DNA from: Pseudomonas sp. KBW05
GTDB taxonomy: Bacteria; Pseudomonadota; Gammaproteobacteria; Pseudomonadales; Pseudomonadaceae
Length of the DNA stretch: 63,487 nt
Direction: 5' to 3'
Assembly: GCF_003852405.1 (NCBI RefSeq)
Contig: NZ_QAJM01000014.1
Coordinates: forward strand, 1 to 63,487
Shown here: one piece after another, positions 26,501 to 63,487 of the stretch
How positions within the stretch are numbered: the first letter of the stretch is position 1
How the letters are laid out: each line of letters starts with the position of its first letter
The notes under the pieces: generated by a model
Told to the model about the DNA's origin: nothing
The model's input: only the letters and a program-made list of their open reading frames with translations
Databases searched by the model: none
Made by a program: the position numbers and the translations under genes

Positions 26501-29500
26501 TGCCCGTGGAGCCGGAGGTGTAGATCAGGTACGCCTGATGCTGCGGCAGATTGATAAACGGCAGTTCATCCGCCGGGTAATTGGCGAGCACCGGCAAGTC
26601 GTCTTCCAGGCACCAGCACGCCACGGTCGCCGGCAATTCGCCGAGGGCTTCGAACATCAAAGCATCGCTGAGCAGCAGGCCGATGTCGCTGTCTTCGATC
26701 ATGTAGTGCAGACGGTCGAGCGGGTATTCCGGGTCCAGCGGCACGTAGGCGCCACCGGCCTTGAGGATCGCCAGCAGGCCGATGACCAACTCCAGGGACC
26801 GTGGCAGCGCCAGGCCGACGCGCACCTGCGGGCCGACGCCGCGTTCGCGCAGCATCCAGGCCAGGCGGTTGGCGCGCTCGTTCAGTTCGCGGTAGCTGAG
26901 GGTCACGCCGGCAAAGGTCAGCGCCGGCGCATCGCCACGGGCCAACGCCTGTTGGTTGAACAGTTGATGGATGCAGTGATCGAGGCGATGTTCGCCCTGC
27001 TCGACGCCCAGGCTGTCCTGCAGCACCCGTTGCTCGGCAGCGCTAAGCAATGGCAGTTCGCTGAGACGCTGTTGCGGATCGGCGATCAACGCTTCCAGCA
27101 AGTTGCGCCAATGTTCGGCCATGCGCGCAATGCGCGGCTCATCGAACAAATCGGTGCTATAGGTCAGGCAGCAACCCAGGCGATGGTCGAGGTCGGTGAC
27201 TTCCAGGTTGAGGTCGAACTTGGTCGCGCGGGCATCGTTGGCCAGGTACTCGACGGTCATGCCGGCCAGTTCGCGGCTTTGCTGGAACTCCCAGCGCTGC
27301 ACGTTGCACATCACCTGGAACAGCGGGTTGTACGCCGCGCTGCGCGGGGGTTGCAGGGCTTCGACCAAGTGGTCGAACGGCAGGTCCTGATGGGACTGGC
27401 CTTCGATCACGGTGTGGCGCACCTGCTCGAACAGCTCGGCCACATTCATCTGCCCGCTGAGCTGGCAGCGCAGCACCTGGGTGTTGAGAAACGCGCCGAT
27501 CAGCCCTTCGCTTTCCGGGCGGATGCGGTTGGCCACCGGCGCGCCGATGCGCAGGTCGGTCTGGCCGCTGTAGCGGTAGAGCAACACGGCCAGTGTGGCG
27601 GTCATGGTCATGAACAGGGTCAGGCCGCGTTCGGCGTTGAAGGCACGCACGCGGGCGGCCAGGTCATCGCTCAAATCGAAGCGGTACAGCTCGCCCCGGT
27701 GGCTTTGCACCGGCGGGCGTGGGCGGTCGCCGGGCAGCTCCAGCAACGGATGCTCGTTACCCAGTTGCGCGGTCCAGTAGTCCAGTTGGCGCTGGCGTTC
27801 GCCGGATTCCAGCCACTGGCGCTGCCACACGCTGTAGTCGAGGTATTGCACCGCCAGCGGCGCCAGTGGCGAGGCACGCTCGTCGATGAAGGCTTCGTAG
27901 AGCGCGCTGAGTTCACGGGCAAAGATGTCCATGGCCCAGCCTTCGGTGACGATGTGGTGCAGGGTCAGCACCAGGTAGTGCGAGCGTTCGCCGGCCTTGA
28001 CCACGCAGGCGCGCAGCAACGGGCCGGTTTCCAGGTTGAACGGGGTGTGGGCCTCATGGTCGGCCAGCTGTTGCAGGCGTTGTTGGCGCGTGGTTTCGTC
28101 CAGCACCGAGAAATCCTGCCAGTCCATGCGCAGGCCGGTTTGCGCCGCGACCTTCTGGTACGCCACGCCATCGACACTGGGGAAGGTGGTGCGCAGGGTT
28201 TCGTGACGCATGACCAAGGCCTGCAACGCCGCCTCGAAACGCCCCACATCCAGCACGCCACGCAGGCGCGCCATGCCGCCGACGTTGTACGCCGGGCTGT
28301 CCGGTTCCATCTGCCAGAGGAACCACATGCGCTGCTGGGAATAGGACAGCGGTACCGGTTGGCTGCGGTCGACCCTGGCGATGGCGGTCTGTTGGTTGCG
28401 CTGGCCCGAGGCCTGGATCAGCCCGACCTGTTCGGCAAACGTGCCCAGCTCGCTGGCTTCGAACAACGTGCGCAGCGGCAGCTCGACGTCGCAGGCCTGG
28501 CGGGTGCGCGAGATGATTTGCGTGGCCAGCAGCGAGTGCCCGCCGAGGGCGAAGAAATCGTCGCGCAGGCCGATGCGTGGCAGGCCGAGGACTTCGCGCC
28601 AGATCGCGGCGATCTGCTGTTGCAGTGCGGTTTCGGGCTCGATGTGTTCGCGGGTTTGCCACACCGGCTCCGGCAGCGCACGGCGATCCAGTTTACCGCT
28701 GGGGCTCAGGGGCATGGCGTCCAGACGCATCAGCAGCGCGGGCACCATGTACTCCGGCAGCTCCGCGGCCAGGGCGGTTTTCACGTCCTGTTCGTCCAAT
28801 TCGGTGTGGGCGGTGTAGTAGCCGATCAACTGCGCATCCCGCACCAGCACCACGGCTTGGGCGATGCCATCGAGGGCCAGCAGGCGCGCTTCGATTTCTT
28901 CCGGCTCCACGCGAAAGCCGCGCAGCTTGACCTGTTGGTCGAGACGGCCGAGGTATTCGAGCACGCCATCGGCGTTCCAGCGCACACGGTCGCCGGTGCG
29001 ATACAGGCGTGCGCCGGCCGCGCCCAGCGGGTCGGCGATAAAACGTTCGGCGGTCAAACCGGCACGACCCAGATAACCCCGCGCCAGGCCAATGCCACCG
29101 ATGCACAGTTCACCCGGCACGCCGAGGGGCAGCAGGTTGAGGTGTTCATCCAGCACGCGGCAGATCACATTGCCCAGCGGCCGGCCAATCGGCGAACGCT
29201 CACCGTCCTCGGCGCGGCAATGCCAGTGGGTGACGTTGATCGCGGTTTCCGTCGGGCCATAGCGGTTGTGCAACTGCACAGCGGGCAACTGCGCCAACAC
29301 GCGGTTGCGCAACTCGGCGGGCAAGGCTTCGCCACCGGAAAACAGGCGGCGCAGGCTGGTGCATTCGGCCGCCAGCGGTTCGTCGATAAACAGCTGCAAC
29401 AGCGGCGGCACGAAGTGCAGCGTGGTCACGCCGTGCTGCTGCACCAACTGCGCGATACGGTGCGGGTCGCGATGCTCGCCGGGGCCGGCCAGCACCAGGC

Positions 29501-32500
29501 GGCAGCCGGTGATCAGCGGCCAGAAGCATTCCCACACCGACACGTCGAAACTGATCGGTGCCTTTTGCATCAGCACGTCGGTTTCGTTGAGTTGGTAAGT
29601 GGCCTGCATCCACTGCAAGCGTTCGGCCAGGGCCGCGTGGGTGTTGCCCACGCCTTTGGGCTGGCCGGTGGAGCCGGAGGTGTAGATCACGTAGGCGAGG
29701 TTGTCACCGTGCAGGTGCAGGCCTGGTGGCTGGGTGGGCCAACTGTCGAGGTGCAGGCTGTCCATGGCGATCACGCACACGCCTTCGGCGGCTGGCAGTT
29801 GCTCCAGCAGCGAGGTCTGGGTCAGCAGCAGTTCGACGCCGCTGTCGTCGAGCATGTAGGCCAGGCGTTCAGCGGGGTAATCCGGGTCCAGCGGCACATA
29901 GGCGCCGCCAGCCTTGATGATCGCCAGCAGGCCGATCAGCAGTTGCGGCGAGCGCTCGGCGGCGATGGCCACGCGCACGTCCGGGCCGACGCCTTTGTCG
30001 CGCAGGTAATGGGCCAGGCGATTGGCCTGGGTGTGCAGTTGGGCGAAGGTCAGGCTGCCGTCCTGCCAGACCAGCGCGGGGTGGTCCGAGGTCTGGGCGT
30101 TGAGCAAATCGGGCAGCCATTGCTGGGCCGCTGCGCACGGTGCTTCGCCCCACGGTTGCGGTTGTTGTTGCATCAGCGGGAGGTCGCCGATGGCCTGTTG
30201 CGGTTGCTCGCACACGGCGTGCAGCAGGTTGATGAAATGTTCGGCCAGGCGCTCGATGGTTGCGGTGTCAAACAGTTCGTCGGCGTAGTCGAACGACAAA
30301 CTCAGGCGCCCGTTGCGGTCTTCTTCACTGTGCAGTTGCAGGTCGAACTTGGCTTCGCGGCTGTGCCACGCCAGTTCGTCGGCGAGCATCCCCGGCAGGC
30401 GGCGCAAGGCGCTGAGGTCGCGTTGCTGGTGGTTGAACATGACCTGGAACAGGCCTTGCTCGCGGGCCTGGGGAAAGGCTTCGAGCAGTTGTTCGAACGG
30501 CAGGTCCTGATGGGCCTGGGCGCCCAATGTGCTCTCGCGGGTGGCCGCCAGCAAGTGGTTGAACGGCAGCTGTCCATCCAGCTCGGCACGCAAGACCTGG
30601 GTGTTGATGAAGAAGCCGATCAGGCCCTGGGTTTCCTGGCGCGGGCGGTTGGCGTTGGGCACGCCGATGCGGATGTCACGCTGGCCGCTGTAGCGGTAGA
30701 GCAAGGTCTGGAACGCTGCGAGCAACAGCATGAACGGCGTGGCTTCGTTGGCCTGGGCGGCCTGGCGGATCGCGGCGCTGAGGCGCGCGTCCAGGCGCAC
30801 GCTGTGGCGCGAGGCGCTGTGAATATGCTGCGACGTGCGCGGGTGGTCGGTCGCCAGGCTGAGCGTTGGATGCTCTTCACCCAACTGGGTTTTCCAGTAC
30901 GCCAATTGGCGCTGGCCTTCACCTTCGGCCAGCCACTGGCGCTGCCAGCTGCCGTAGTCGGCGTATTGCAGCGCCAGTGGCGGCAGCTCCAGTGCGTGGC
31001 CTTGGGATGTGGCGGCGTAGAGGCGGGAGAACTCGTCGATGAGGATATTCAGCGACCAGCCATCGGCAATGATGTGGTGCAAGGTCACCAGCAACTGATG
31101 ATCTTCATCGTCGAGGCGCACCAGGGTCACCCACAGCAGCGGGCCTTTCTCCAGGTCGAACTGGGTGCGTGCTTCGTCCTCGCGGATTTGCTGTGCACGG
31201 GCTTCTCGCTCGGCGTTGGGCAGGTCGCTGAGGTCGATGATTTGCAGGTCGAAATCGGTGCTTGGGTCGACACGCTGGAAGGCCTGGCCGTCGCGTTCGT
31301 AGAAGCGCGTGCGCAGGGCTTCGTGGCGCTGGATCAGGTGCTGGAAGCTTTGGCGCACCGCGTCTTCGTCCAGTTCGCCGCGCAAACGCAGGGCGCCGGG
31401 GATGGTGTAGGCGCTGCTCTGCGGGTCCAGTTGCCAGGTGATCCACAGGCGGTTTTGCGCCAGGGATTGCGGCAGGTCGTCCTGGCGTGACAGCGCATGG
31501 ATAGAGCCTTGGGCGACGCCACCGTCATGCTGCAATTGCGCGACGCTGGCGGCAAACGTCGCGAGTGTCGGCGCTTCGAACAGCAGGCGCAGGTTCAGCT
31601 CCAGGCCGAGGGTTTCGCGCAGGCGGGCAACCACCTGGGTGGCGGTGATGGAGTTGCCGCCGAGCAGGAAGAAGTGATCGTCGGCGGCCACCGTCGCAAG
31701 GTTCAGCTGTTCGCACCAGATCGCGGCGATCTGGCTTTGCAGCGCAGATTCCAGCGCCGCGCCAGTGGCGGCCGCTTGCAGGTCGGGGAATTGCGCGTAG
31801 CTGTCGAGGCTGCCATCGGCATGGCGCAGGCCGCACGCCGCGCGCTGCACCTTGCCGCTGGAGGTCTTGGGCAGCGCGCCGGGGTTGAGCAACACCACCA
31901 CGCAAGGCGCTTCTTGATAAGCCTCGGCGACGGCTTGGCGGATTGCCTTGATCAGTGCTTCGGGCGGCAGGATTTTCTGCACGCTGCGGCTGATTTCAGC
32001 GGCGATGCCGATGCCTTCCAGGCCGCCGTCATTCACCGCGAATGCAGCGACCCGGCCTTTGCGCACCACCTCCACTTCGCGCTCGATGGTCTGTTCGATG
32101 TCCTGCGGATACAGGTTGTGCCCGCGCACGATCAGCAGGTCTTTCAGACGCCCGGTGATGTATACCTCGCCAAAGCGCATAAACCCGAGGTCGCCGGTGC
32201 GCAGCCAGGTGCGGCCCGCGTGTTGCACAAAGGTTTTGGCCGTGGCCTCAGGGTTACGCCAGTAACCGTGGGCGATGCTGGGGCCGGTAGCCCAGAGTTC
32301 GCCGACGCAGTTGTCCGGCAATTCGGCGAGGGTGTGCGGATCGGCGATCAACACTGCGTGCTCCGGCTGGCTGGTGCCGCAACTCATGATCGCACTGCCC
32401 TGCCCCGGCTCGGCGCGGTTGGCGGCGAGCGCTGGCTCATCGACGCGCAGCGCCGGGATGCCATGGCCACGTTTGCCGCCGGCGACAAACAAGGTCGCCT

Positions 32501-33473
32501 CGGCCAGCCCGTAGGAGGCGAAGAAATTGTCGGAGGTGAACCCACACACGGCGAACTTCTCGGCGAAGCGCTCCAGGGTGTCGAGGCGGATCGGTTCGGA
32601 GCCGGAATAGGCCACGCGCCATTTGCTCAAGTCCAGGCGTTCGAGGGCCGATTCGCTGACCCGCTCGCTGCACAGGCGGTAGGCGAAATCCGGGCCGCCG
32701 CTGATGGTGCCGCCGTATGCGCTAATCGCTTCCAGCCAGCGCAACGGTCGGCCCAGGAAGTACGCCGGCGACATCAGCACGCACGGCACGCCGCTGAAAA
32801 TCGGTTGCAGCAGGCCACCGATCAGGCCCATGTCGTGGTACAGCGGCAGCCAGCTGACGATCACGTCGTCGGGGTTGAGGTCGATGCCAAAGCCGCGGCG
32901 GATCAGCACTTCGTTGGCCACCAGGTTGCCGTGACTGACTTGCACGCCCTTGGGCAAGGCGGTGGAACCGGAGGTGTATTGCAGGAAGGCGATGTCGTCG
33001 GGCTGCAGGTCGGGGGCGATCCAGTCACCCGCATTTTCGAGGTTATCGACGCTTAACACCGGCGGTGCGTTTTCAATCTGCGACAAGCCTTCGGCGAGAC
33101 TGGCGATGGTCAGCAACAGGCGCGGCTCGGCATCGCTGATGATCGACAGCAGGCGCTCCTGGTGATGGCGGCGAGTGGACTCCGGCGGATAGGCCGGCAC
33201 CGCGATGACCCCGGCGTACAGGCAAGCAAAAAACGCCGCGACGTAGTCCGGGCCGCTGGGGAACAACAGCACCGCGCGGTCGCCCAGCTCGGCGTTGGCC
33301 TGCAAGGCGGCGGCGATGGTGCGGGCGCGCTGGTCGAGGTCACGGTAGCTGAGCACGACGCTCTGCTCGGCGGACTCGGCGAGGAAGCGCAGAGCCACCT
33401 GGTCCGGGGTCTGCGCGGCGCGACGTTGAAGGGACTGGACCAGGGTACGGGGAAGTTCGAAGGCGTCCATCAT
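20589..33473 (-). CDS. pvdL: Pyoverdine chromophore peptide synthetase PvdL
   Basis: 4,294-residue nonribosomal peptide synthetase that starts pyoverdine assembly. Approximate order: fatty-acyl-AMP ligase 1-570; carrier 1 (GGNSIT, Ser near 605); C1; A1 ([12 protein letters not shown] near 1268); carrier 2 near 1645; C2; A2 near 2323; carrier 3 (GGDSIL near 2711); epimerase ([10 protein letters not shown] near 2888); C3; A3 near 3840; carrier 4 near 4230; no thioesterase. Pocket residues aligned by hand to GrsA: A1 D-V-W-H-F-G-R-I-N (Glu-like), A2 D-A-E-G-I-G-A-V-M (expected Tyr, then epimerised), A3 D-I-W-E-L-T-A-D-D (diaminobutyrate-like). This fits acyl-Glu-D-Tyr-Dab. C2 has HHIVTEG and C3 HHILIDA instead of HHxxxDG. 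Two ATGs in tandem (33473, 33470); the second has better Shine-Dalgarno spacing. Confidence 0.95.
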
Positions 33474-52260: not shown

Positions 52261-52361
52261 ACCTGTGGCGAGGGAGCTTGCTCCCGCTGGGCTGCGCAGC
52301 AGACCCAAAAAGCATGGGAGCGCTTCGCACTCCAGCGGGAGCAAGCTCCCTCGCCACAGGT
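52261..52361. repeat. REP-type inverted repeat, GTGGCGAGGGAGCTTG family
   Basis: Ends ACCTGTGGCGAGGGAGCTTG and its perfect inverse. It is the same family as 1198-1309, including the inner GCTGGGCTGCG segment. It divides the two downstream lipoprotein genes. Confidence 0.9.
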
Positions 52362-52388: not shown

Positions 52389-52715
52389 TCAGGGCTGGCG
52401 GCAGTTCTGGTTGACCGACAAGTTCGGCGCCGGCTCATAGCTCACGCGCTGCAAGCCATCGGCGCCCTGGAACAGGAAGTACTTGGCGCGGCAGTCCTTG
52501 AACATCGGCGAATACCCCTCGGCCCGGAAGCCCTGGCCATCGACCTGTTTGGTCACGGTGTTGTTGCGGCTGACCACGGCAAGGACCTTCTGATAACTGT
52601 CACCCATGTTCACCCCGGGCTCGCCGGTGATCGCCGCCGACGAGGCGCAACCGCCCAGGGTGGTTGCCGCCAGCGCCAGTGCGGCGCCGTACAGTCCATT
52701 GCGTAAAGTGTTCAT
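52389..52715 (-). CDS. Predicted lipoprotein, 108 residues
   Basis: Signal peptide with lipobox TLGGC (Cys23). The mature region is about 85 residues with a Cys pair (DCRAKY, NQNCRQP). No family is recognised. It starts 24 nt after the stop of the lipoprotein gene at 52740 with AAGGA as ribosome-binding site, so it is probably on the same transcript as the cdi-type genes. Confidence 0.75.
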   Translation of the reverse strand: MNTLRNGLYGAALALAATTLGGCASSAAITGEPGVNMGDSYQKVLAVVSRNNTVTKQVDGQGFRAEGYSPMFKDCRAKYFLFQGADGLQRVSYEPAPNLSVNQNCRQP

Positions 52716-52739
52716 TGCGTGTGTCCTTTGGGTGATGGA

Positions 52740-53045
52740 TTAGCGGCGGCCTTCGCATACCGGTGATTCGCCGATGCGGCCGAGCTTGCACATGTCCACG
52801 TTATCCTTGCGCTTGAAGCCTGAGTCTTTCATGCAATAGAAATTTGTCAGTCTCACATCGATTGGCGACCTGTCTCCCGCCCCATCAATATTGGTATACC
52901 CGCACGCACGCATCGCACTCTTGATGCCGGCTTGGGATACACCCTCCTTGTACCACTTGGTGTAATCCGGAGGCGGCGGTTGAAACGGCGTGCAGCCAGC
53001 GACAATCAGCATGCCCAGGCCGAACAGTAGTGCACGTTTGAACAT
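52740..53045 (-). CDS. Small Cys-rich lipoprotein in the immunity-gene position
   Basis: 101 residues from the ATG at 53045. Lipobox IVAGC (Cys18), then a Pro-rich stretch (PFQPPPPDY) and a compact domain with four more Cys (ACGYTN, FYCMKDSGF, DMCKLG, PVCEGRR). The gene follows cdiA after 11 bases and its AAGGAA ribosome-binding site overlaps the cdiA stop codon, so translation is coupled. That is where cdiI immunity genes normally lie. A membrane-anchored immunity factor would suit a lipase-type toxin acting in the envelope. The immunity role is inference; the family is not recognised. Confidence 0.7.
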   Translation of the reverse strand: MFKRALLFGLGMLIVAGCTPFQPPPPDYTKWYKEGVSQAGIKSAMRACGYTNIDGAGDRSPIDVRLTNFYCMKDSGFKRKDNVDMCKLGRIGESPVCEGRR

Positions 53046-53056
53046 GCTTGCATTCC

Positions 53057-53812
53057 TTAAGGTTGAGGTTTGACTTTGACGAACTCTGATCGTCCTTCTT
53101 TGGAACCCTCCCAATATTTAGCACATCCCGCTGAGGCGCTGAGATAGCAGTTATGGACACTTTCATCGGCAAAAAACACCTTGACCCACTCCCACAGCGG
53201 GTTACTGCCCTTCGGGATCGTACCGCCGGTCCCGGGGTTAAAACCTACGCCCAGCGACCGAGCCACGGGATCGTAATTATGATTCTGGTAAGCCAACGTC
53301 AGCGCTTCGCGCTGCGACTCAGAGCTGACCGCCGAGCGGTTCTGCAAGACTCCCAACAACGTATCGGCTTTTTGCACGCCGTACGCGGCCCCGAAAAAGT
53401 TCATCGACGTATCGCCTAACACGCCAACATTTGCCGGATCACGGGCCAATGATTCCATGGCATTGCCCGTGGTCATTGTGCCCCGGCTATGCCCGTCGAT
53501 ATGCAGCCCACTCTGGCCGAACTGGACCATGTATTCCTTGGTCTGCACAGTCGCGTTGGACAGCCCCCAGAAATCGTTCTCAAGGTTTTTCTGGTACGCC
53601 GCGATCATTATCTCGGACGTGAAGTTATTGGCCTTCTCAAAGTGGATCAGGTACTGCGGACCGGTGTCCGCCGAACTGTGCTGATCGGCATACCTGGCCG
53701 CACCGTCGGCGTCGTTGAAAATACCGTTGTTGGCGATATGCACCTTGCCGTCCGGCCCCGGCTTGAGGTGCTGCTTTTCTTCGTCGCTCAACTCGCGATA
53801 GCGAACCTTGTC
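53057..53812 (-). other. C-terminal effector region of CdiA, lipase-like
   Basis: About residues 2340-2590. The nucleophile elbow GHSRG places Ser2448; DPV in NHNYDPVARSLG gives Asp2520; His2559 lies in ESVHNCY. Spacing and order (Ser, Asp, His) fit a lipase/esterase triad. Composition here looks lower in GC than the repeat trunk. Cutting site and exact substrate are unknown. Confidence 0.65.
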
Positions 53813-56800
53813 ATTCTCGTCCCGCAACGCCTTGCCATCCTCACCCTTCAGCACCTCATACACCCGCGCTTTCTCAAGGAAGATCTTGCGATAGGCCTCA
53901 TCCGCCAACATCGACACTTGGTTATAGAACTCTCGCTTGATCTCCTGCTCCGCCTCAACCTTGCGCCCCATTTCCGCCACGTCCAGGCGCTCCACGGCAG
54001 CGTGGGCGGCCTCGGTATTGCGGTTGAGGGTGGCAATCGTCTGGTCGACGCTCATGCCGGCGACCACACGCTGGCGCTCGGCATTGGTGATGACCAGGGT
54101 GCCGGCGCTGATGGCGCTGCGGGTGTCGCTGGCGGCGGAGTCGGAGTCCGAACCGTTGGCGAGGCTGTTGGCAAGCAGCGCCTTGGCCGTGCCGAGCTTG
54201 CCGTCGAGCATGTCCGAACTGAGCTCCACCCCGGAAGTCTTGACGCTGGCTTCGGAGGTGTTGTGGATGTCGGCCACGGTCAGCGTGCCGGTGGTCAGGC
54301 TGTTCTTGCCGTCGGCGATGGCCTTGTCGGTGCTGGAAATCACGCCGCCCTTGAGGTCGGTGTTGCCGCGCACGTTGAGGTCGAAACCGCCATCGCCAGC
54401 ACGAATGCCGGATTGCTCGATGACGCTGGCAAAGTTGGACTTTTGCTTGGTGTTGCTGGAGCTGAAGCTGGCCGTCGCGGCACCCGCGCAGACCGGCGGG
54501 ATGCAGATGCTGATGCCGGCGCTCATGCTCTTCTGCTCGGAGGCAAATTTGCTGGTGTCTTGCAGGCTCTCGATATTCAAGTCGCCGCCGACGTCGGCCT
54601 TGACCTTGTCGGCCGAGACCACCGCGCCGCGCAGGGTGGTGTCCTTGCCGGACACCAGGGTGGCCTGATTGCCCGCCGTCACATGGGTATTGCTCCAGAC
54701 CAGGTCGTTGCCATCGGCATTGCCGCGGCTTTGGGACGCCGAAGCGTTGAAGCTCAGGCCGTTCTTCTCGCTGCCAAAGGAGATGCCGATCCCCAGGCTG
54801 CCGTTCACGCTTTTGTTGGTGCTGTGTTGCTCGATGGTGTTCTCAGCACCCGCCAGCAGGATATTGCCGTCGGCCTTGAGCAACGCATCGTTGCCGGCAG
54901 TGATCTGGCTGCCCTGCACCGTCAGGTCGTTATTGCGCTTGCCGCCGGTGGCCACAATCGACACATCGTGCCCCGCCGCCACCGTCGAGCCGGCGGCGGT
55001 GTTGGAGGTTTGCTCGCTTTTGTTCTCGCTCTTGTTCATGCCCAGGGCGATGCTCAAGTTGATCCCGCCTGCTGCAGCCGGGTCAGCCATCACTTGGGTA
55101 TACGCTTCGTTGGTGGCCCACACGGTGTTCAGCGCGGCCAGGGTTTTCATGCGTTTGTCGTCGGTGCGCTCGGCGGCCTTGTTCATTCGCTGGCCGGTTT
55201 GCACGGCGTTGACGATCGGGTTGGTCAGGGTCAGGCTTACGCCGGTCTGCTTGAAGCGCTGCTCCTGTTGCTGCGCACTGAGGTTGCGCGCTTCGAGGAT
55301 ATTCACCTCGGAGGCGTCAATCGACACATCGCCCTTCGGTGCGCTGACATTGCTGCCGACTTGGCGGTATTCGCCACCCGAACTGATCAACACGTTGCCA
55401 TCGGTGGAACCAATACTGCTGGCCGCCGCCGTGGTCTGCTGGCTGCTGTCCTTGTTGGTCTGTTGCTGCGAGCCGATAGTGACGGCAATCCCGCCGCCGC
55501 TGAACATGCCGCTGGTCTTCACGTCCTTGGTGTGTTTTTCGTCGAGGGTCTCGGTGGCCGCCAAGACCTTGATGTCATTGCCCGCCACCAGCGCCGTGCC
55601 CGAGGTCGAGACCACGTTGCTGCCGGTAATGGTGATGTTGTTGCCGGCCTGCATCACCGCCTGCTCGCCGCTGAAGGTCGAGCCTTGCGCGGTGGTCTGG
55701 GCCACCGTGTCGCGGGTGGTGGTGGTCTTGCTGGAGAACATGCCGTTGCTGCCCTTGACCTTGTGCGCCTCGTCCGCCGTGCTGAAGCGCTCGCTGGCCG
55801 CGACGTTGATATCGCGGTTGGCGCTGACGGCCACGGCACCGGCGTCACTGTTGACCAGCGCGCCGCGTGCCTGCACATCACGCCCGGCACCCAGGCGGAT
55901 ATCGCCCGTGGCCTGCACTGAACTGCCGACTTCGCTGCGCCCGGCTTCCTTGCGCCAGTTGTCGCCATCCCATTGGTTGGACTGGGTGAAGGACTCGTTC
56001 ACCGTGCTCAAGGTGATGTCGTTGCCCGCCACCAGCGCCGTCTTGCCGCCGACGCCGGTGTTGCTGACCTGGGCCGCTTGCAGGTTGATGTTGTTGCCGG
56101 CGGTGGCAATCAGGTTGGCCGCCGGTGCCGACACATACAGCCCCGCCACCCGCGACAAGGCCGTGCGGGTGCCCTGCGCGCTCTCGCTGTCGGTGGTGAT
56201 CGAGCGCACGTTGATGTCGTTGCCGGCATTCAGGGCCAGGCGACTGTTGGCGCTGATCAGGCCGCCGATGTTGTTCAGGTCCTGGCTGGCATTCAACGAC
56301 ACGTCGTTGCCCTGGATGCGCCCGCCGAGGTTGTTGAGGTTCTGCACACTGACGTTCACGCCATCGCGCCCGGAAAGACTGCCGCTGTTGACCAGGTCAC
56401 CGCGCACGTCGAGGTTCAGGGTACGCCCGGCCATCAGCGCGCCGGAGCCGTCGATGTCACCTTCGCGAACCCGTACGTACACCTGCGGCACCAGCACCTT
56501 GCGCACTTCGCCGCTGGCCAGGGTCACGTCCTTGGACACCAGCCACACGATATCGCTGGTCAACTGCGCCATTTGCGCGGCAGTCAGCGCCACGCCCGGG
56601 ATCAGCTTCCACTGATCGGCCAGGGTCACGGCGCTGTCGATCATGCCGCGATACTGCGCTTCGTCACTGGCATAGCCGTCGACAAAACGGCGCCCGGTGA
56701 GTTGGGCGACTTGTTCGCGGATCAGCTTCTGCTCGTAGAAGCCGTCGCCGAGGCGCTGCTGGGTACCGGCCGGGTCGAGGTTCAGGCGTTCGAGCATGTA

Positions 56801-59800
56801 GTCCGACGACAGCCACTTGCCGTAGTTGGCGAAGCGCGGGTCGGTCTCCACCAGGTAACCGGCGGTGCTGTTGGGGTTGATCTGGTACAGGCTGCTGTTG
56901 GGCAGGTCGGGGTTGAAGCCACCGGTGCGGATCTGCTCTACCGCGCCGCCCGCGTTCTGCTGGGTCAGTGCTTGCACTTCGCTGATCGGGCTCACCGCAT
57001 AGGTGCGCCCGGCACCGGCCAGATCACCGGTGCCGGCCGCGCTGTCGGTGACCTTGGCCAAGACCAGTGCGCCGACCTGGGTGCCCGTGCCGTTGATGGC
57101 CGCGTACTCGGTAAACACCGTCGGTTTCAGCGAGATCTGCTCGATCAACGGCGCCGGGGTATACGCCGTGACGTTAAGGCCCTGGCGGTCACGGCCTTTG
57201 CGCTGGATACGGTAGTAGCTGGCCAACGTGCCGCTGTCGGAAGTGACTTTCTGGCCGCTCAATTCGGTGTTGATGACCGAACCGACGCTGGCATTCAGCG
57301 CCTGGCCGGCGATGATCCGGCTCTTGTCGTTGTACACCTGGTCGGCAATCAGGTTGATGTTGCCACCGGCGAGGATCTGCGCCGGATCCGAGGCGACGAT
57401 CTGCGTCTCGGTGACGGTGCGGTTGTAGTCGTAGCGGAGCCAGCGCGTGCCGTAGCCTTCCGGGGTAACCAGGTGCAGGACCTCATCGTTGTACAGCGAG
57501 ATCTGCCCCGGCAGGTAGCGGTTGGTCGAACCCGACAGCAGGTACTCCTGCAACGCCTGGGTGGACACCTGCACTTGCTGGGTGGCGAAGTGCTCGTTGG
57601 TGTTGTTGATCTGCTTGGCGTTGAGGCTCAGGCTGCCCAGCGCTTCGACGGTGGCGCTGGCGTTGTTCAGCACCTGCGCCTGGCCCGTGGCCTGGTCATT
57701 GGCATCCAGCGCGCCGCCGATCAGCAGGTTGCCGGTGCTGAAGATCAAGCCGTGTTCACGGTTGTTGATGACCTGCGCGCCGATATCCAGGCGGTTGCGT
57801 GCGGCAATCGTCGCGGCGGATGCGCCTTCAACGGTGTTGTTCAGGGTGCCGGCGGAGAGGGCGAGCAGATCGCCATAGATGCGCCCGGTGCCGAGGTTGT
57901 TCAGGGTCGCGGTGGTCAGGCGCGTAGCCTCGCCGTCGATCAGGCCACGGTTGTCCAGTTGCGTCGCCGCGTTGACCTGCACTTTGGGTGCACTGATCAC
58001 GCCGCTGGCGGTGTTGTCGACAACGTTGGCGTCCAGGCGCAGCAGGTTGCCGGCCTGCAGCGCGCCCAGGTTGGTCAGGCGCCCGCTGGTGGCCAGCGAC
58101 ACGTTGCCGTTGGCCTGGAACAGGCCGCTGTTGACGAAGTCCTGGGTCAGGCGGAACGTCAGGTCACCCAGGCTGAGGACCTTGCCGTTGCCGCCATAGT
58201 TGGCGCTGTCGAGCAGCAACGATTGCCCGGCAATCAAGGTGCCCGCGCCGTTATTGATGGCCTGGCGTTTTTGCGCGAGGTCGCGGTCAGCCACGGTCAG
58301 CGTGCTGCCGGCCGAGATGATCCCCTGTTCGTTGTCCAGGGTGCCGCTGCCGGTGACGCTCAGCGTCGTATCGGAGACGATCGAACCGCTGCGGTTGCTG
58401 ACGCTGTCCACGTCCAGCGCGACAGACTGGCCCTTGATGCCCTGGTTGGCGCCTTGGGTGCTGCTGTTGTCCACGCTGGCGGCGGTCAACAGCAGGTAGC
58501 CGTCGGCGCGCAACAGGCCGGCCTGGTTGCTCAGGTGCTGGGCGTTGACGTCGAGGGTGGCGGCGCTGCCGATAAAACCCTGGTCGTTGAGCAACTGGCC
58601 CGCACGCACGCTGACGTCGCGCTGGCCGAGGATGCCACCGGTGCTGCCGGAATTGCGGTTGCTCAGCTGTTGGCCGTGGGTGTCGATCTTCAGGCTCGAC
58701 TTGGCCTGCACGATGCCGCCGTCGTTGTTCAGCACGCCGCTGTCGACGGTCAGGGTATCGCTGGCATTCAGGGTGCCCTGGGCGTTGTTCAGTTGCTGGC
58801 CCTGGGTATTGAGCAACAACTGCGCGCCGGTGATCACCCCGCTGCTGTTGTTCAGGCCTTGGGCGTTGAGGGTCAAGGCCTTGGCGGCTTCCAGACGGCC
58901 GCCGGTGTTGTCGAGCGCCGTTGCGTCGCTGTTGAGCAGCAGGTCGCCCGCAACCGAGCCGAGGGTGCCGCCTTGGTTCAATACGCTGCCCGCCTTGACC
59001 GTCAGCGTCTGCGTCGCCGCGACGGTGCCCTTGGCGTTGTTCAATTGCGCGGCGGTGACTCCCAGCGCGCCGCCGGCGGTGATCTGCCCGTTGCTGTTAT
59101 CCAGGGTGCCGCCGTTGAGGGTCAACTGCGCGGCGCTCACCAGCTTGCCGTTTTGGTTGGCCAGGTGTTGGCGTGCGGTGACGGACAAGTCGCCAAGCGC
59201 ACCGGACTGCACCAGGCCGCCGCCGTTGTTCAGGCTGTCGGCACTGACGTCGAGGCCGCCGCCGCTGGCAAGGATGCCGCTGCTGTTGTCGAGGTTGCGC
59301 GTGACGCTCACACGCATGCCGGCAGTGCCGGTCTGCACCCATTTGCCGCCGACGTTGGACAGGTCCAGCGCCGTGACGCCGATCTGCGCCGCGCCGACCT
59401 GGGCGGCATCGCTGAGCAAGGCCTGATTGGCGTTGGCGGTCAGCGCCTGGCTGGCGGTGACGCGGCTGCGGCGCAGGTCCAGGTTGCCAGCGGTGCTGGT
59501 CAACGCGACGGTCTGGGCCGAGGTCTGGCTGTCACTGAGGTCAACCTGCGCGGCGCTGGCGGTGAGCTTTTGCGCCGCAAGGTTCTGCCCCTTGGCCGTG
59601 ATCGTGCCGGCCGAAGTCAGGGTCAGCGAACCGCTGTCACCCAGCTTGCCGGCGCTGTCGACGCCCGCCGCGAGTGCGGAACCGGCGTGGCTGCGAATCG
59701 CCCCCTTGGCGGTCAGGCGGGCATCGCCCTGGGCGGACGCAATGCCTTTGTTGTCGATATCTGCGGCGCTCTTGAGGTCCAGATTGCCTTGAGCGTACAG

Positions 59801-60829
59801 CGTGCCGCTGTTGTCGATGCCCTTGTCAGCCGTGGCCGTCAGCTGGGTGGCGCTGCTGATCTGGCCACGGTTTTCGATGCGCCCGTCACTGCCAATCACC
59901 ACTTCACCGGCGCTGGAGCCGATCTGCCCGGCGTTGCGCACGCCCACGCCGGCGCCGTTGCCCACCAGGGTGATCTTGCCGGCATACATGCCGCCCAGTT
60001 GCGCCACGTCGATGGCCACGGCGGGCGTATCAGCCGGCGCGGCACCGGTGGTGCCGGCCTTGATGGTCAGGTCCTTGGACCAGATGCCCGCGTTCACTTC
60101 GACCGTGCGCGCAATGATCTCGGTGTAGTCGGCACGGCTGGTGTCCATGCCTTCGCCACCGATGCTGATCTTGCCGCCCGAGACCTGATAGCCACTGATC
60201 AGGCCGTTCTCGAACTGTGCGCGCCCGGTGGTCAGCGTGGCGCGGTCGGCGTTGATAAAGCCGCAACCTTCGCACGCAATGCCCGATGGGTTGGCAATCA
60301 CCACCTGGGCCTTGGAACCGGCCACTTCGACAAACCCGCGCAACTGGCTCGGGTTGCTCGAATTGACTTCGTTGAGAATCACCCGCGCGCTGCCGTTGGC
60401 CAGCGCACGGTTGCCTTCGATCCAGCCAGCCAGCTGGGTCTGGCTGTTGGTCGCGGCGTTATTGAGGATCACCCCGCGCTTGTCCACGTCGAACTGCGAA
60501 TAGGTGTTGCGCGACACGCCTGCGTCGCTCGGGCGGGTGATGTCCACCACCGGCGCGCCATTGCCTGCGGCACCGATGGTCGGGCGCTGGCCTGCGGGTG
60601 CCGAGCCATCGGCCACGACCTGGGCCTGCACCGGCGCCACCAGGGTGACCCAGCCCATGCCCACCATCAACGCAAAGTGCAGCGGCGTGAGGGTTGCGGT
60701 GACCGGGCTTACCTGGGACACGCCGCGCGTGGTGCCGGGGGCCTTGCAGGCGCTCTTGACGTTCTCGGCCACCACCATCAGCAGGCCGCGGGCCTTGTTG
60801 AATACAACTCGAAACAGATGCTTATTCAT
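53057..60829 (-). CDS. cdiA: CdiA-like two-partner secretion exoprotein with lipase-like C-terminus
   Basis: 2,590 residues. An extended signal peptide (about 1-70, with FNKARGLLMVVAE and a hydrophobic core MVGMGWVTLVAP) is followed by the TPS secretion domain (about 80-330; NPSGI and GFINADRATL). Long stretches of filamentous-haemagglutinin beta-helix repeats follow (LNNSSGVITG-type), then an FHA-type region and the pre-effector phrase AGTLVITNAERQ. I see no VENN motif. The C-terminal 250 residues look like an alpha/beta hydrolase (separate entry). The ribosome-binding site is AAAGGA. It starts 24 nt after the acyltransferase gene. The partner transporter is encoded first in the operon. Alternative: a large adhesin rather than a growth inhibitor. 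Confidence 0.88.
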   Translation of the reverse strand: MNKHLFRVVFNKARGLLMVVAENVKSACKAPGTTRGVSQVSPVTATLTPLHFALMVGMGWVTLVAPVQAQVVADGSAPAGQRPTIGAAGNGAPVVDITRPSDAGVSRNTYSQFDVDKRGVILNNAATNSQTQLAGWIEGNRALANGSARVILNEVNSSNPSQLRGFVEVAGSKAQVVIANPSGIACEGCGFINADRATLTTGRAQFENGLISGYQVSGGKISIGGEGMDTSRADYTEIIARTVEVNAGIWSKDLTIKAGTTGAAPADTPAVAIDVAQLGGMYAGKITLVGNGAGVGVRNAGQIGSSAGEVVIGSDGRIENRGQISSATQLTATADKGIDNSGTLYAQGNLDLKSAADIDNKGIASAQGDARLTAKGAIRSHAGSALAAGVDSAGKLGDSGSLTLTSAGTITAKGQNLAAQKLTASAAQVDLSDSQTSAQTVALTSTAGNLDLRRSRVTASQALTANANQALLSDAAQVGAAQIGVTALDLSNVGGKWVQTGTAGMRVSVTRNLDNSSGILASGGGLDVSADSLNNGGGLVQSGALGDLSVTARQHLANQNGKLVSAAQLTLNGGTLDNSNGQITAGGALGVTAAQLNNAKGTVAATQTLTVKAGSVLNQGGTLGSVAGDLLLNSDATALDNTGGRLEAAKALTLNAQGLNNSSGVITGAQLLLNTQGQQLNNAQGTLNASDTLTVDSGVLNNDGGIVQAKSSLKIDTHGQQLSNRNSGSTGGILGQRDVSVRAGQLLNDQGFIGSAATLDVNAQHLSNQAGLLRADGYLLLTAASVDNSSTQGANQGIKGQSVALDVDSVSNRSGSIVSDTTLSVTGSGTLDNEQGIISAGSTLTVADRDLAQKRQAINNGAGTLIAGQSLLLDSANYGGNGKVLSLGDLTFRLTQDFVNSGLFQANGNVSLATSGRLTNLGALQAGNLLRLDANVVDNTASGVISAPKVQVNAATQLDNRGLIDGEATRLTTATLNNLGTGRIYGDLLALSAGTLNNTVEGASAATIAARNRLDIGAQVINNREHGLIFSTGNLLIGGALDANDQATGQAQVLNNASATVEALGSLSLNAKQINNTNEHFATQQVQVSTQALQEYLLSGSTNRYLPGQISLYNDEVLHLVTPEGYGTRWLRYDYNRTVTETQIVASDPAQILAGGNINLIADQVYNDKSRIIAGQALNASVGSVINTELSGQKVTSDSGTLASYYRIQRKGRDRQGLNVTAYTPAPLIEQISLKPTVFTEYAAINGTGTQVGALVLAKVTDSAAGTGDLAGAGRTYAVSPISEVQALTQQNAGGAVEQIRTGGFNPDLPNSSLYQINPNSTAGYLVETDPRFANYGKWLSSDYMLERLNLDPAGTQQRLGDGFYEQKLIREQVAQLTGRRFVDGYASDEAQYRGMIDSAVTLADQWKLIPGVALTAAQMAQLTSDIVWLVSKDVTLASGEVRKVLVPQVYVRVREGDIDGSGALMAGRTLNLDVRGDLVNSGSLSGRDGVNVSVQNLNNLGGRIQGNDVSLNASQDLNNIGGLISANSRLALNAGNDINVRSITTDSESAQGTRTALSRVAGLYVSAPAANLIATAGNNINLQAAQVSNTGVGGKTALVAGNDITLSTVNESFTQSNQWDGDNWRKEAGRSEVGSSVQATGDIRLGAGRDVQARGALVNSDAGAVAVSANRDINVAASERFSTADEAHKVKGSNGMFSSKTTTTRDTVAQTTAQGSTFSGEQAVMQAGNNITITGSNVVSTSGTALVAGNDIKVLAATETLDEKHTKDVKTSGMFSGGGIAVTIGSQQQTNKDSSQQTTAAASSIGSTDGNVLISSGGEYRQVGSNVSAPKGDVSIDASEVNILEARNLSAQQQEQRFKQTGVSLTLTNPIVNAVQTGQRMNKAAERTDDKRMKTLAALNTVWATNEAYTQVMADPAAAGGINLSIALGMNKSENKSEQTSNTAAGSTVAAGHDVSIVATGGKRNNDLTVQGSQITAGNDALLKADGNILLAGAENTIEQHSTNKSVNGSLGIGISFGSEKNGLSFNASASQSRGNADGNDLVWSNTHVTAGNQATLVSGKDTTLRGAVVSADKVKADVGGDLNIESLQDTSKFASEQKSMSAGISICIPPVCAGAATASFSSSNTKQKSNFASVIEQSGIRAGDGGFDLNVRGNTDLKGGVISSTDKAIADGKNSLTTGTLTVADIHNTSEASVKTSGVELSSDMLDGKLGTAKALLANSLANGSDSDSAASDTRSAISAGTLVITNAERQRVVAGMSVDQTIATLNRNTEAAHAAVERLDVAEMGRKVEAEQEIKREFYNQVSMLADEAYRKIFLEKARVYEVLKGEDGKALRDENDKVRYRELSDEEKQHLKPGPDGKVHIANNGIFNDADGAARYADQHSSADTGPQYLIHFEKANNFTSEIMIAAYQKNLENDFWGLSNATVQTKEYMVQFGQSGLHIDGHSRGTMTTGNAMESLARDPANVGVLGDTSMNFFGAAYGVQKADTLLGVLQNRSAVSSESQREALTLAYQNHNYDPVARSLGVGFNPGTGGTIPKGSNPLWEWVKVFFADESVHNCYLSASAGCAKYWEGSKEGRSEFVKVKPQP

Positions 60830-60853
60830 GCAGATCCTTTGCGCGGTGGCTGA

Positions 60854-61375
60854 TCAGAGCGCGTCGCTGGGTAACGGGTGAGTGGCAAACCAGGCTTGCG
60901 CCTCCAGGTCCAGGACGGCGATGCCCTGGAAATTCAAGACGCGCAAGCCGCGCTCTTCGCCTTTGTGGTGCAGCGCGCGGAACACCTTGGTGGGCCACAA
61001 GCGGCGGCGCAGCAAGCTGCTGATACGCTGGGTGTGGCCAAACGGCGCGACCCAGTCGTTGATCCACAAGCGCTCGCCGCTGTCCCAATCCTCCGCTGGC
61101 AGGCACACCGCCGGCGTGCGCAGGTAACGCGCCTCGGCGTCGGCACTGAGGTTGAGCCACGAGAGGAAAAACACCGGCCGCCCGCCTTCGCTGATCAAGA
61201 TGAACTGGCGCCGCTTGATCGCCGGCAACAACAGCGTCGACAGGCTGTGCAACGGTGCATCGCGATGAGCCGCCGAGTGCATCCACAGCCACACCGCCGA
61301 GCCCAGCACCTGGGCTTCGTCGATGGGGCTGTCGGCCCGCTCGGGGGCGAGCACCTCCAGGGTGTCGTGGTGCAT
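60854..61375 (-). CDS. HlyC-family toxin-activating lysine acyltransferase (CdiC-like)
   Basis: 173 residues. The family transfers an acyl chain from acyl-ACP to internal lysines of a secreted toxin. Alignment by eye to HlyC is clear: VLGSAVWLWMHSAAHRDAPL with catalytic His37, LLLPAIKRRQFIL, PVFFLSWLNLSADAEARYL, and DWDSGERLWINDWVAPFG with Asp107. Both catalytic residues of HlyC (His23, Asp92) are thus kept. The ATG at 61375 has GGAGG five bases upstream. It sits 11 nt after cdiB and 24 nt before cdiA, in one operon, so CdiA is its likely substrate. Confidence 0.88.
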   Translation of the reverse strand: MHHDTLEVLAPERADSPIDEAQVLGSAVWLWMHSAAHRDAPLHSLSTLLLPAIKRRQFILISEGGRPVFFLSWLNLSADAEARYLRTPAVCLPAEDWDSGERLWINDWVAPFGHTQRISSLLRRRLWPTKVFRALHHKGEERGLRVLNFQGIAVLDLEAQAWFATHPLPSDAL

Positions 61376-61386
61376 GCTGGCCTCCT

Positions 61387-63132
61387 TCAAAATGACCAGT
61401 TGGCGCTGAAGCCACTGGTCACGTCGGCGGTCTGGAAACCCTTGGGTTTTTCCAGGGGCTTGCCGGTGTAGATGTCATAGGAAAACTGCTTGTAGCCGCC
61501 GCGCAGGCCCACCACCGCACCGGCCAGGCGCCGGCCCGAGAGGTACTGGGTGGAATGCCCGCCGACTTCGCCATAGTCCACGCCCAGGTAAAGTTCCTGG
61601 CCGGTGTTGGCCAGGCTCAGGCCGAGGTCGTTGCTAAAGGTCCAGCCGCGTTCGGCCGAGAGGATCTGCTCGCCGTCGAAACCGCGCACGGTGTAGCGCC
61701 CGCCAATCGAAAAGCGGTCCTGGGGAATCAGCGGCGTGCGGTTCCACTGCCCGCGCCAGCCGGCGATATAGCGCAGGCGCTGGTCGGCCAGGGTGAACGG
61801 CAGCTGCAATTGGGCGTTGGCGGTAATGATCTGCGAGCGCGAGGTGCCTTCGCCGTTTTCCTCTTCAGGCGCGCGCAATGCATCACGGGCGCCGGTGCCA
61901 CGGCGATAGCCGACGCCGAGGTCGAGGGTGCTGGCGCCGATGAATTCACGGTGGTTGATCCCGGCCTGCCAACCGGCCATGCGCCGGCGTTGCAGTTCGA
62001 TTTCGGTGTCTTCGATGTAGTTGCTGGACGTGCGGCTCCAACCGCCGACCGACACGGTGGTCTTGCGCACGGCATCGCGGTAGATCACCCGCGACAGCTG
62101 CACCTCATTGGTCCGGCTGCGACCACTGTAGGAATACGCCTGGTTCACCCCGGCAATCGTCTGGTGGTAGTCGTACTCGCTGGACGTCAGGCTCAGCTGC
62201 CAATAGTCGTAGGGCACCGAGTAATGCACGGTATGGCCCTTGGAACCACGGTCGCCACTCTGGCCACCGCCCAAATCATGGTTGAAGCTGATGTAGAACA
62301 GATCGTTGAGGCTCGCCAGGTTGTCCAGCGACAGCGCGACGTTGCCTTGGTACTTGCCGGTCTGCTTGCTGCCGGAGTCATCCACCGACAGGCTGACGCG
62401 CACTGGAATCGCCTGCTTCCAGGCAATCACCACATCGCTTTCACCCGGCTGCGCATCCGCGCCTTCGGCCGGGGTGATCTGCACGTCGGCTTCGGCCGTG
62501 GGCACGCGCTTGAAGTTCTCCAGCGCCTGCTCGATATCGCGCAGGTTCAGCACATCGCCAGGCGATGCGGGCATGGCGTTCCAATAATTGGCGCGGGCGG
62601 AGGTGCCTTCGGCAAAGCGGATGTGCTTGATCCGACCCGGCACCAGCACCAGCGACAGCGTGCCCTGGTTCAAATCCTGGGCCTCGGCGAGGACGCGAGT
62701 AGTGATGAAACCCTTGGCGATGATCGCGTTTTGAATGCGCTTCATCGTCAGGTTGATACCGGCGGAACCGACACAACGGCCTTGCACCGGATCGTCTGTC
62801 GGGTTGGCGGCGCGCAGGGCCCACTGGAAGTCTTCGGCCTGGTCGCCACTGAGCACAACGCGGTCGATCTTGAAGCACGGCGTTTCATTGCGCGGCAAAC
62901 GCAAGTTGCCGGCGCTGTCCAGCGGCGCTTCCAGACGGACGTCAGGGGATTGCTCCAACTGCTCGCGCTGGGCGCGTTCACGTTGTTGCTGCAGGAGTAG
63001 TTGTTGGGCAGGCGCTTGCGGCTCAGCCGCCAAAGCCGCTGCGCTGGTCAGGAAACCGACAAGGGAACAGGTGGCGACGCAAGACTGCAGCAAAACAGAC
63101 GGTTTTGTTCTAGGTAAAGCGTCGAAAGACAT
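61387..63132 (-). CDS. cdiB: Two-partner secretion transporter CdiB (FhaC/ShlB family)
   Basis: 581-residue outer-membrane protein that exports CdiA. It has a signal peptide (about 1-38), a Gln-rich N-terminal linker helix (QQLLLQQQRERAQREQ), a POTRA pair (about 75-230; FKIDRVVLSG, LVPGRIKHIRF) and a 16-strand barrel. The conserved VRGF/E lid loop is RYTVRGFDGE, and the protein ends in a hydrophobic final strand with terminal Phe (FSANWSF). The ATG at 63132 (MSFDALPRTK) is chosen: the longer frame starts with unrelated Cys-rich sequence. First gene of the operon. Confidence 0.93.
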   Translation of the reverse strand: MSFDALPRTKPSVLLQSCVATCSLVGFLTSAAALAAEPQAPAQQLLLQQQRERAQREQLEQSPDVRLEAPLDSAGNLRLPRNETPCFKIDRVVLSGDQAEDFQWALRAANPTDDPVQGRCVGSAGINLTMKRIQNAIIAKGFITTRVLAEAQDLNQGTLSLVLVPGRIKHIRFAEGTSARANYWNAMPASPGDVLNLRDIEQALENFKRVPTAEADVQITPAEGADAQPGESDVVIAWKQAIPVRVSLSVDDSGSKQTGKYQGNVALSLDNLASLNDLFYISFNHDLGGGQSGDRGSKGHTVHYSVPYDYWQLSLTSSEYDYHQTIAGVNQAYSYSGRSRTNEVQLSRVIYRDAVRKTTVSVGGWSRTSSNYIEDTEIELQRRRMAGWQAGINHREFIGASTLDLGVGYRRGTGARDALRAPEEENGEGTSRSQIITANAQLQLPFTLADQRLRYIAGWRGQWNRTPLIPQDRFSIGGRYTVRGFDGEQILSAERGWTFSNDLGLSLANTGQELYLGVDYGEVGGHSTQYLSGRRLAGAVVGLRGGYKQFSYDIYTGKPLEKPKGFQTADVTSGFSANWSF

Positions 63133-63487
63133 TTCGCATCCTTGTGAGTGAAACTTCCTACATTCGCAGGCTTGGTCACCACAAAGACATAAAAGTGCCA
63201 TGGGGATGTATGGCCCTGTGACACATTTCGCAAAAACGGGGGGTTGGGAACGGCTTGGCTTTTTGGGTGGAAGGCTCTATTTCAAGGCCTGGAGCTGATT
63301 TAGCCGAATTCGACAATAATTCAACTTTTGTACAGGTTTGTGTCCTGATGCAATGAGCCTCTGCACAAACCCATCAAATTGGCGGCAGCCAGACAGACCG
63401 AGGTGTCTGCATCGCAGGCAAGCCAGCTCCCATAAAAAAGCGGTGAACGACACGAGCAATACCGGTCGGCTTTAAGGCCGCCGCGCT
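63133..63487. other. Region upstream of cdiB, no gene seen
   Basis: AT-rich near 63290-63330. On the minus strand TTGAAT (63324-63319), 16 bases, TAAATC (63302-63297) is a weak sigma-70-like candidate for the cdi-type operon. No open frame here looks like a gene. Confidence 0.4.
63396..63432. repeat. Single REP half-element, third family
   Basis: GACCGAGGTGTCTGCATCGC followed by AGGCAAGCCAGCTCCCA. Read on the other strand it starts TGGGAGCTGGCTTGCCTGCG, a REP type known in fluorescent pseudomonads and unlike the two families seen elsewhere in this window. No inverted partner lies before the window end. Confidence 0.7.

Follow-up and report, generated by a model that had tools for sequence, protein, structure and literature searches.

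In the accessible text of PMC4725963 and PMC8616854, contact-dependent growth inhibition (CDI) toxins are described as delivered to the cytosol, and most of those characterised are nucleases. The cdiBCAI arrangement of CDI genes was named in 2016 in PMC5131962, whose accessible text notes that Pseudomonas fluorescens and P. syringae have CdiC orthologs. For E. coli, the accessible text of PMC8510554 gives evidence that CdiC modifies Lys1467, in the receptor-binding domain (RBD) of CdiA, with 3-hydroxydecanoate; this acylation promotes binding and full killing, with the lipopolysaccharide core as receptor, and the unacylated effector retains significant activity. Here we analyse a related operon of Pseudomonas sp. 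KBW05 (genome of 6.5 Mb in 69 contigs), encoded on the minus strand of a 63,487-nucleotide (nt) stretch of contig NZ_QAJM01000014.1, hereafter the window. It encodes a two-partner transporter (CdiB), a HlyC-type acyltransferase (CdiC), an exoprotein (CdiA) and three lipoproteins (lp1, lp2 and lp3; Table 1).

The closest described system is the class IV CDI system of E. coli STEC_O31, which has the same gene order, a HlyC-type CdiC with His37 and Asp107 at the same residue numbers, a filamentous haemagglutinin (FHA) filament, a variable C-terminus and a conserved acceptor lysine before a glycine in the RBD (PMC8510554). The window's CdiA differs from it in having no VENN motif and in that its C-terminal (CT) domain is followed by lipoprotein genes, the E. 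coli system being known here from its published text. The cdiBCAI locus of Xenorhabdus doucetiae FRM16 also shares the gene order, and orphan cdiI genes are reported there too, but its CdiA ends in a Mg-dependent DNase that follows VENN, with one CdiI (PMC5131962, accessible text). Two enteric plasmid loci of this class, in Rahnella (L051, 15606-16181; loci are given by L numbers) and Enterobacter (L052, 15605-16180), carry between cdiC and cdiA a beta-barrel gene, annotated in L052 as an outer-membrane protein of the Ail/Lom family, which is absent in the window. The acyl-CDI chassis is already published; the part not found in our literature search is a hydrolase-like CT combined with lipoprotein immunity. 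Among the papers listed by that search, which left most subscription journals outside its reach, none was on a CDI system with a lipase CT or lipoprotein immunity, and words starting with "lipase" or "hydrolase" are absent from the accessible main text of a 2022 CDI review (PMC9086364).

The locus is probably a cdiBCAI, or class IV, CDI operon with an acylated RBD, a hydrolase-like CT toxin, lp1 as its envelope immunity protein and a site of action in the periplasm or envelope. In the proposed mechanism, CdiB would export CdiA, and cytoplasmic CdiC, as residue conservation and the published system suggest, would move a fatty acyl group from acyl-acyl carrier protein (acyl-ACP) to Lys1211 of CdiA. 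By analogy with the published class, this acylation would strengthen the binding or anchoring of the filament tip at the target outer membrane. The target cell would receive the alpha/beta-hydrolase-like C-terminal module, which most likely acts in its periplasm or on its envelope; sibling cells would be shielded by envelope-anchored lp1, which moves with the toxin, with lp2 and lp3 in the same module. A more specific proposal is that CdiA carries an enzymatic toxin that acts in the target periplasm or envelope instead of the cytosol and skips the entry region, and that the lipoproteins neutralise it and are kept as shields after the weapon is lost; for this we judge the chances to be even.

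An exchangeable C-terminal module

Loci L041 and L042 illustrate the exchange of the CdiA C-terminus on a common chassis: their CdiA proteins are 94-100% identical per 100-residue block up to residue 1500 and 17-44% identical from residue 1601. A C-terminus of the window's type was present in 12 of the 38 CdiA proteins compared. A Pfam scan covered 23 of the 26 others; left out were the irregular CdiA of L060 and L073, both short, and of L072, whose tail is odd. At E<=0.01 the scan matched DUF637 in 13 of the 23, Ntox15 in 6, PT-VENN in 4 and Endonuclea_NS_2 in 2. None of these four families was matched at the same threshold by any of the 12 window-type C-termini. By sequence comparison, the C-terminus is an exchangeable module that replaces nuclease toxins on the same chassis. 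A polymorphic C-terminus followed by a predicted cognate immunity gene is thereby found at this locus, as in the class.

A pre-toxin region (PT-VENN or DUF637) is expected for cytosolic delivery of the E. coli type, and none was found in the window's CdiA. Measured from a shared motif, the stretch up to the C-terminus spans 308-320 amino acids (aa) in the 9 window-type proteins (of 12) with the motif and 570-791 aa in the 16 others (of 26) with it, so that where the others hold the pre-toxin or entry region, the CdiA of the window is shorter by at least 250 residues. Two points weigh against this comparison. The shared motif is held by only 25 of the 38 CdiA, 13 being without it, and the DUF637 matches seen in detail lie mostly below Pfam's own cut-off; the case for a missing entry region consequently leans more on length.

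Sixteen CT sequences, distant ones included, were aligned. All 16 have Ser2448 (in the window's GHSRG) and Asp2520, and 15 have His2559; the three residues follow one another as in an alpha/beta-hydrolase triad. Each residue of a cysteine pair is conserved in 14 of 16. An AlphaFold model of the CT, which at a pTM of 0.37 proves nothing, shows a strand (243-247), Ser248 and a helix (249-262; model numbering) arranged as expected of an alpha/beta-hydrolase. By eye, the CT also fits the printed signature of Tox-ABhydrolase-2 (NG, [DE], [KR], HSxG, D, H; PMC3482391), with Asn2368-Gly2369, Glu2406, Lys2414, His2447-Ser2448-Arg-Gly2450, Asp2520 and His2559. That family is listed in the accessible text of PMC3482391 with FilH repeats and with type V secretion. 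The likeness is to the printed signature, and there is a difference in immunity, Imm-SUKH being listed there where the window has lipoproteins; a lipobox-bearing immunity family, Imm65, is listed in the same source for another toxin.

Several observations count against taking the hydrolase fold as established. The fold is unsupported by sequence matches: the CT had no match in Pfam, its PDB sequence matches were at chance level (E 0.18-0.35), and no toxin family was found for it in PADLOC or PHROGs. The model has a mean pLDDT of 50.3, and the distant relative L119 has NQSRS where the window has GHSRG. On the conserved residues and the model, the CT looks like an alpha/beta-hydrolase-like domain with Ser2448-Asp2520-His2559 as putative triad. 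An earlier note on this DNA had described the C-terminus as enzymatic in appearance and suggested a lipid-acting effector; the second suggestion is only a guess. A lipid is a possible substrate. The authors of the Tox-ABhydrolase-2 family were unable to tie that family to lipases (PMC3482391, accessible text).

Lipoproteins beside and without the putative toxin

The presence of a lipoprotein gene next to the toxin was scored as a lipobox-bearing gene starting within 300 nt of the cdiA stop codon. Loci L098, L101, L102 and L103 (cut, small or remnant) were left out and L116 and L117 were judged apart; the 26 comparison loci include the irregular CdiA of L060, L072 and L073. Under a strict lipobox rule, such a gene was found in 14 of 18 loci with a window-type CT and in 0 of 26 with another CT (Fisher p 2.7e-8). 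A relaxed rule gave 18 of 18 against 3 of 26 (p 1.3e-9), but only the strict count is free of bias, because the rule was relaxed after the four misses were known. Of the two loci judged apart, L117 passes.

Across 399 sampled genomes of the genus, a CT match was found in 13, and an lp1-type gene adjoins it in all 13; the gene of L078 was recognised by its lipobox and FQPPP motif alone, and in L102 and L103 lp1 stands beside remnants. In 10 aligned copies of lp1, the lipobox Cys18 and four further cysteines are invariant. Neither lp1 nor lp2 had a Pfam match in the domain scan of the operon proteins. Weak matches of lp1 were phrog_21928 (E 1.6e-7) and PADLOC PDC-M02A (E 0.0026), and tblastn found no phage copy of lp1 at E 0.01.

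With the chassis partialled out, pairwise distances of CT and lp1 covary (partial r 0.73, permutation p 0.0006, ten complete loci; leave-one-out partial r 0.55-0.81). The corresponding values for CT are not significant: 0.21 with lp2 (p 0.08), 0.18 with lp3 (p 0.12) and -0.06 with HlyC. Loci L038 and L039 are 99% identical in CT and in lp1 and 84% in the RBD. Because CT and lp1 covary in this way, we read lp1 as the immunity protein, and the lipoproteins are best read from their sequences as immunity proteins, not co-effectors. Against this assignment stand the four of 18 loci that fail the strict lipobox rule, the downstream ORF of L116, which fails both rules, and the size of the covariation sample, ten loci, in which the partial r falls to 0.55-0.56 without L038 or L039. 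A further point is that lp2 and lp3 follow the chassis (r 0.78-0.95 with TPS, RBD and FHA2).

In their own right, lp2 and lp3 were considered as specificity determinants and rejected, since their distances follow the chassis. A role in immunity is nevertheless favoured for both, because they are absent behind other C-termini (L070 apart) and are kept in orphan modules. They may assist immunity or, like BcpO in Burkholderia, the chassis.

Type VI lipase effectors (Tle) are paired with periplasmic lipoprotein immunity proteins (Tli). A serine hydrolase-like effector with an envelope immunity lipoprotein is common to those pairs and the window's predicted pair; they differ in the type VI needle on one side and the two-partner filament on the other.

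The lipoprotein genes are also found without the toxin. Matches to lp1 occurred in 33 of 299 genus genomes, fragments and a second subfamily of ~35% identity included, and 25 of these 33 genomes lie outside the 13 with a CT match. At an identity of at least 62% over at least 88 residues, lp1 was found in 18 genomes, and 13 of these 18 had no CT match. None of the 20 lp1 loci fetched had a CT match at E 1e-3; in L166, a scrap resembling the CT tail was recognised by eye. In L153, L155, L162 and L163, lp1-lp2-lp3 stand at the window's site and cdiBCA is gone, with cdiB scraps left in three. There, the yegS, luxR and kinase genes on one flank are 84-92% identical to the window's, and three genes on the other flank are 95-98% identical. 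L070 has all three lipoprotein genes after a different C-terminus.

No internal stops interrupt the orphan copies where they align (of lp3, L150 has just a 60-residue piece). Their median dN/dS is 0.13-0.18, against 0.15-0.16 for copies beside the toxin, the orphan values coming from pairs among orphans and not from strictly orphan branches. Locus L150 (G244:C2:1904500-1914500) holds three lp1 copies in ~1.5 kb with no toxin match, a small orphan immunity-like array. The second lp1 subfamily (L164-L169; 32-35% identical) has several frames near 220 aa and other surroundings, with no CT match. In a distant gammaproteobacterium without HlyC, several lipoprotein-like ORFs stand in a row after an HSRG-type CdiA (L118:9606-12405).

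Action in the periplasm or on the envelope is suggested by the missing pre-toxin region together with lipoprotein immunity, the four extra invariant cysteines of lp1 and the cysteine pair of the CT. It is unlikely that the toxin instead enters the cytosol like other CDI toxins, with the lipoproteins as accessory factors of export or assembly and the true immunity protein encoded elsewhere. The chassis-like distances of lp2 and lp3 speak for such a role, and it has a precedent in BcpO, a predicted lipoprotein encoded by an accessory gene in Burkholderia bcpAIOB loci (PMC9086364, PMC4725963, accessible text), but the distances of lp1 go with the CT, not with the chassis. Moreover, in the 5 kb after each of the 26 CdiA that end in another type of C-terminus, no relatives of lp1, lp2 or lp3 were found beyond the orphan set of L070 and an 18-residue lp2 match in L060 (E 0.35), and the lipoprotein set persists in genomes without cdiBCA.

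Many two-partner secretion (TPS) exoproteins are adhesins. That the window's exoprotein is an adhesin or biofilm factor, whose C-terminus is a maturation domain and no toxin, would suit this, as well as the lack of a VENN motif and of a toxin model match. We nonetheless consider it improbable, given that Ntox15 or endonuclease domains take the place of the CT in other CdiA of this chassis, and that the CT has catalytic-looking invariant residues and is linked to a lipoprotein set that is also retained separately.

If the reading as a toxin with lipoprotein immunity is true, envelope-acting enzymes are also among the cargo of the CdiA filament, and delivery across the outer membrane would be separable experimentally from inner-membrane entry. 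Seen also in distant Gammaproteobacteria, both with CdiC and without it, the pairing of an HSRG C-terminus and a lipoprotein gene would then be a widespread toxin-immunity class. Natural genome pairs with and without the toxin offer a chance to gauge the value of orphan immunity. The C-terminal module is the more important part; the acylated-CdiA part takes a mechanism already published into another Pseudomonas.

The acyltransferase-bearing chassis and its predicted acceptor lysine

The gene set and the gaps of 11, 24, 11 and 24 nt between cdiB, cdiC, cdiA, lp1 and lp2, as described in the earlier note, are exact, and the Pfam assignments of ShlB and POTRA, HlyC, and ESPR, TPS and haemagglutinin repeats are unambiguous. 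Relatives of HlyC at E<=0.001 were found in 34 of the 399 sampled genus genomes, some of them distant (27-38% identity). The 47 rows of the HlyC-relative set reduced to 41 distinct loci after six second copies of a locus were dropped. The search for the same gene order that the note had suggested bore it out: in 40 of the 41 loci the longest ORF upstream of hlyC, 564-618 aa long, ends 8-19 nt before hlyC (the exception is L073, 540 aa with a gap of 161 nt), and in 38 of 41 a CdiA of at least 2,072 aa matching the window's TPS region lies downstream. The three loci without such a CdiA are L043 and L050, on short contigs, and L080, whose HlyC is just 39% identical. Since this order recurs in relatives, the operon is not a chance arrangement.

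Asp107 is conserved in all 41 aligned CdiC relatives and His37 in 40 of them, and ApxC (4whn) is a relative of solved structure (E 1.2e-27). The window thus has the close-set cdiB-cdiC-cdiA order and the HlyC-family CdiC with its His/Asp pair, both features of class IV membership. Two further two-partner exoproteins are encoded in the genome (C35 and C24; frames of 2,151 and 4,202 aa), with no adjoining HlyC gene.

The receptor-binding region of the window's CdiA is 41-44% identical, over 427 aligned residues, to those of the two enteric cdiC-bearing plasmid CdiA, and judged against these two relatives it is a class IV RBD with the predicted acceptor lysine. Lys1211 aligns with Lys in 38 of 38 CdiA. 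The text of PMC8510554, as far as accessible, implies that residues 1465-1469 of CdiA-STEC4 read Arg-Lys-Lys-Gly-Lys; the window has Gln-Arg-Lys1211-Gly-Arg. From that text rather than from a sequence, we deduce that Lys1211 is the equivalent of Lys1467.

Six distant genomes were reached through matches to the C-terminus. The Lys-Gly motif is present in both that have HlyC and absent in three without HlyC whose region aligned; the receptor-binding region of the sixth, also without HlyC, did not align. The absence in the three is not a point loss, because their receptor-binding regions are dissimilar overall. A point against coupling of the lysine to the enzyme is that the CdiA proteins of L098 and L099 keep the lysine with no HlyC match in their genomes; L098 is a draft of ~410 contigs, and the cdiA of L099 is cut at its 5' end.

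By analogy with the published system, the acyl group is located on the RBD rather than on the toxin, and CdiA is probably fatty-acid-tagged for gripping neighbouring cells. The earlier note had proposed an acyl-activated contact-dependent system. It had the kind of system right, the arrangement and the lysine acylation being already in the literature (PMC5131962, PMC8510554, accessible text), but its statement that the exoprotein must be acylated to work was too strong, because acylation, in the system described in print, enhances binding to the target, and an effector without it is still significantly active.

The exoprotein had also been named there as the HlyC substrate, which a separate RTX toxin in the genome would have contradicted. 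A profile search of the genome gave exactly one HlyC match. The RTX pore-forming domain PF02382 had no match in the genome; this profile was silent in all 14 control genomes too, so that absence is not proven. RTX repeats (PF00353) matched nine times in seven frames, of which the largest, the only one looked at, is an adhesin-like tail with VWA and cadherin features. With a single HlyC and the acceptor-lysine motif present in CdiA, these results support the exoprotein as the probable substrate, and no separate RTX toxin was found within that scope. HlyC enzymes classically activate RTX toxins. That the window's HlyC acylates an RTX toxin encoded elsewhere, its operon position being incidental, would accord with this role and with the RTX repeats, but is scarcely credible given the single HlyC, the lack of a pore-forming domain match within the limit just stated, and the conserved place of HlyC between cdiB and cdiA, an arrangement that has been characterised biochemically (PMC8510554, accessible text).

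Features of the operon and neighbouring genes

Coordinates are collected in Table 1. The start of cdiB was taken at 63132, the longest ORF beginning at 63201. The earlier note had listed small lipoproteins after cdiA, of which lp1 and lp2 were borne out; a third lipoprotein gene (52238-51687), lp3, had been overlooked. It belongs to the operon, a pair of REP elements splitting it from lp2. The 26-mer of these elements has 139 copies in the genome at <=2 mismatches (70 forward, 69 reverse).

Table 1. Coordinates of the operon features in the window
Feature	Position	Strand	Basis
cdiB, two-partner outer-membrane transporter, 581 aa	61387..63132	-	Pfam ShlB 1.2e-104, POTRA_2, POTRA_3
cdiC, HlyC-type lysyl acyltransferase, 173 aa	60854..61375	-	Pfam HlyC 1.7e-33; catalytic pair His37/Asp107
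cdiA, exoprotein effector, 2,590 aa	53057..60829	-	ESPR, TPS, Fil_haemagg, Fil_haemagg_2 domains
TPS secretion domain of CdiA, residues 69-319	59873..60625	-	Pfam TPS 3.4e-46
Receptor-binding region of CdiA, class IV-like, residues ~1091-1520 (bounds set by us)	56270..57559	-	aligned in 38/38 CdiA
Lys1211 codon, predicted acylation site	57197..57199	-	RKGRD context; Lys in 38/38 CdiA
FHA-2 region of CdiA, residues ~1521-2200 (bounds set by us)	54230..56269	-	Fil_haemagg_2
CT, hydrolase-like putative toxin domain of CdiA, residues 2331-2590 (start set by us)	53060..53839	-	conserved Ser/Asp/His; low-confidence alpha/beta model
lp1, lipoprotein, 101 aa, predicted cognate immunity protein	52740..53045	-	invariant lipobox Cys18; covaries with CT
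lp2, lipoprotein, 108 aa, member of the lipoprotein module	52389..52715	-	beside CT in 10/12 loci of the cdiC-bearing chassis; kept in orphan modules
REP pair between lp2 and lp3	52265..52357	-	26-mer found genome-wide
lp3, lipoprotein, 183 aa	51687..52238	-	follows the same CT in 11/12 loci; kept in orphan modules

Elsewhere in the window, a non-ribosomal peptide synthetase of 4,294 aa is encoded at 20589-33473, with four condensation and four adenylation stretches; its size is like that of PvdL of pyoverdine synthesis. Adjoining the synthetase gene, at 17727-20438, is an ORF of 903 aa with no Pfam match at E 1e-4 and no NCBIfam match at E 1.

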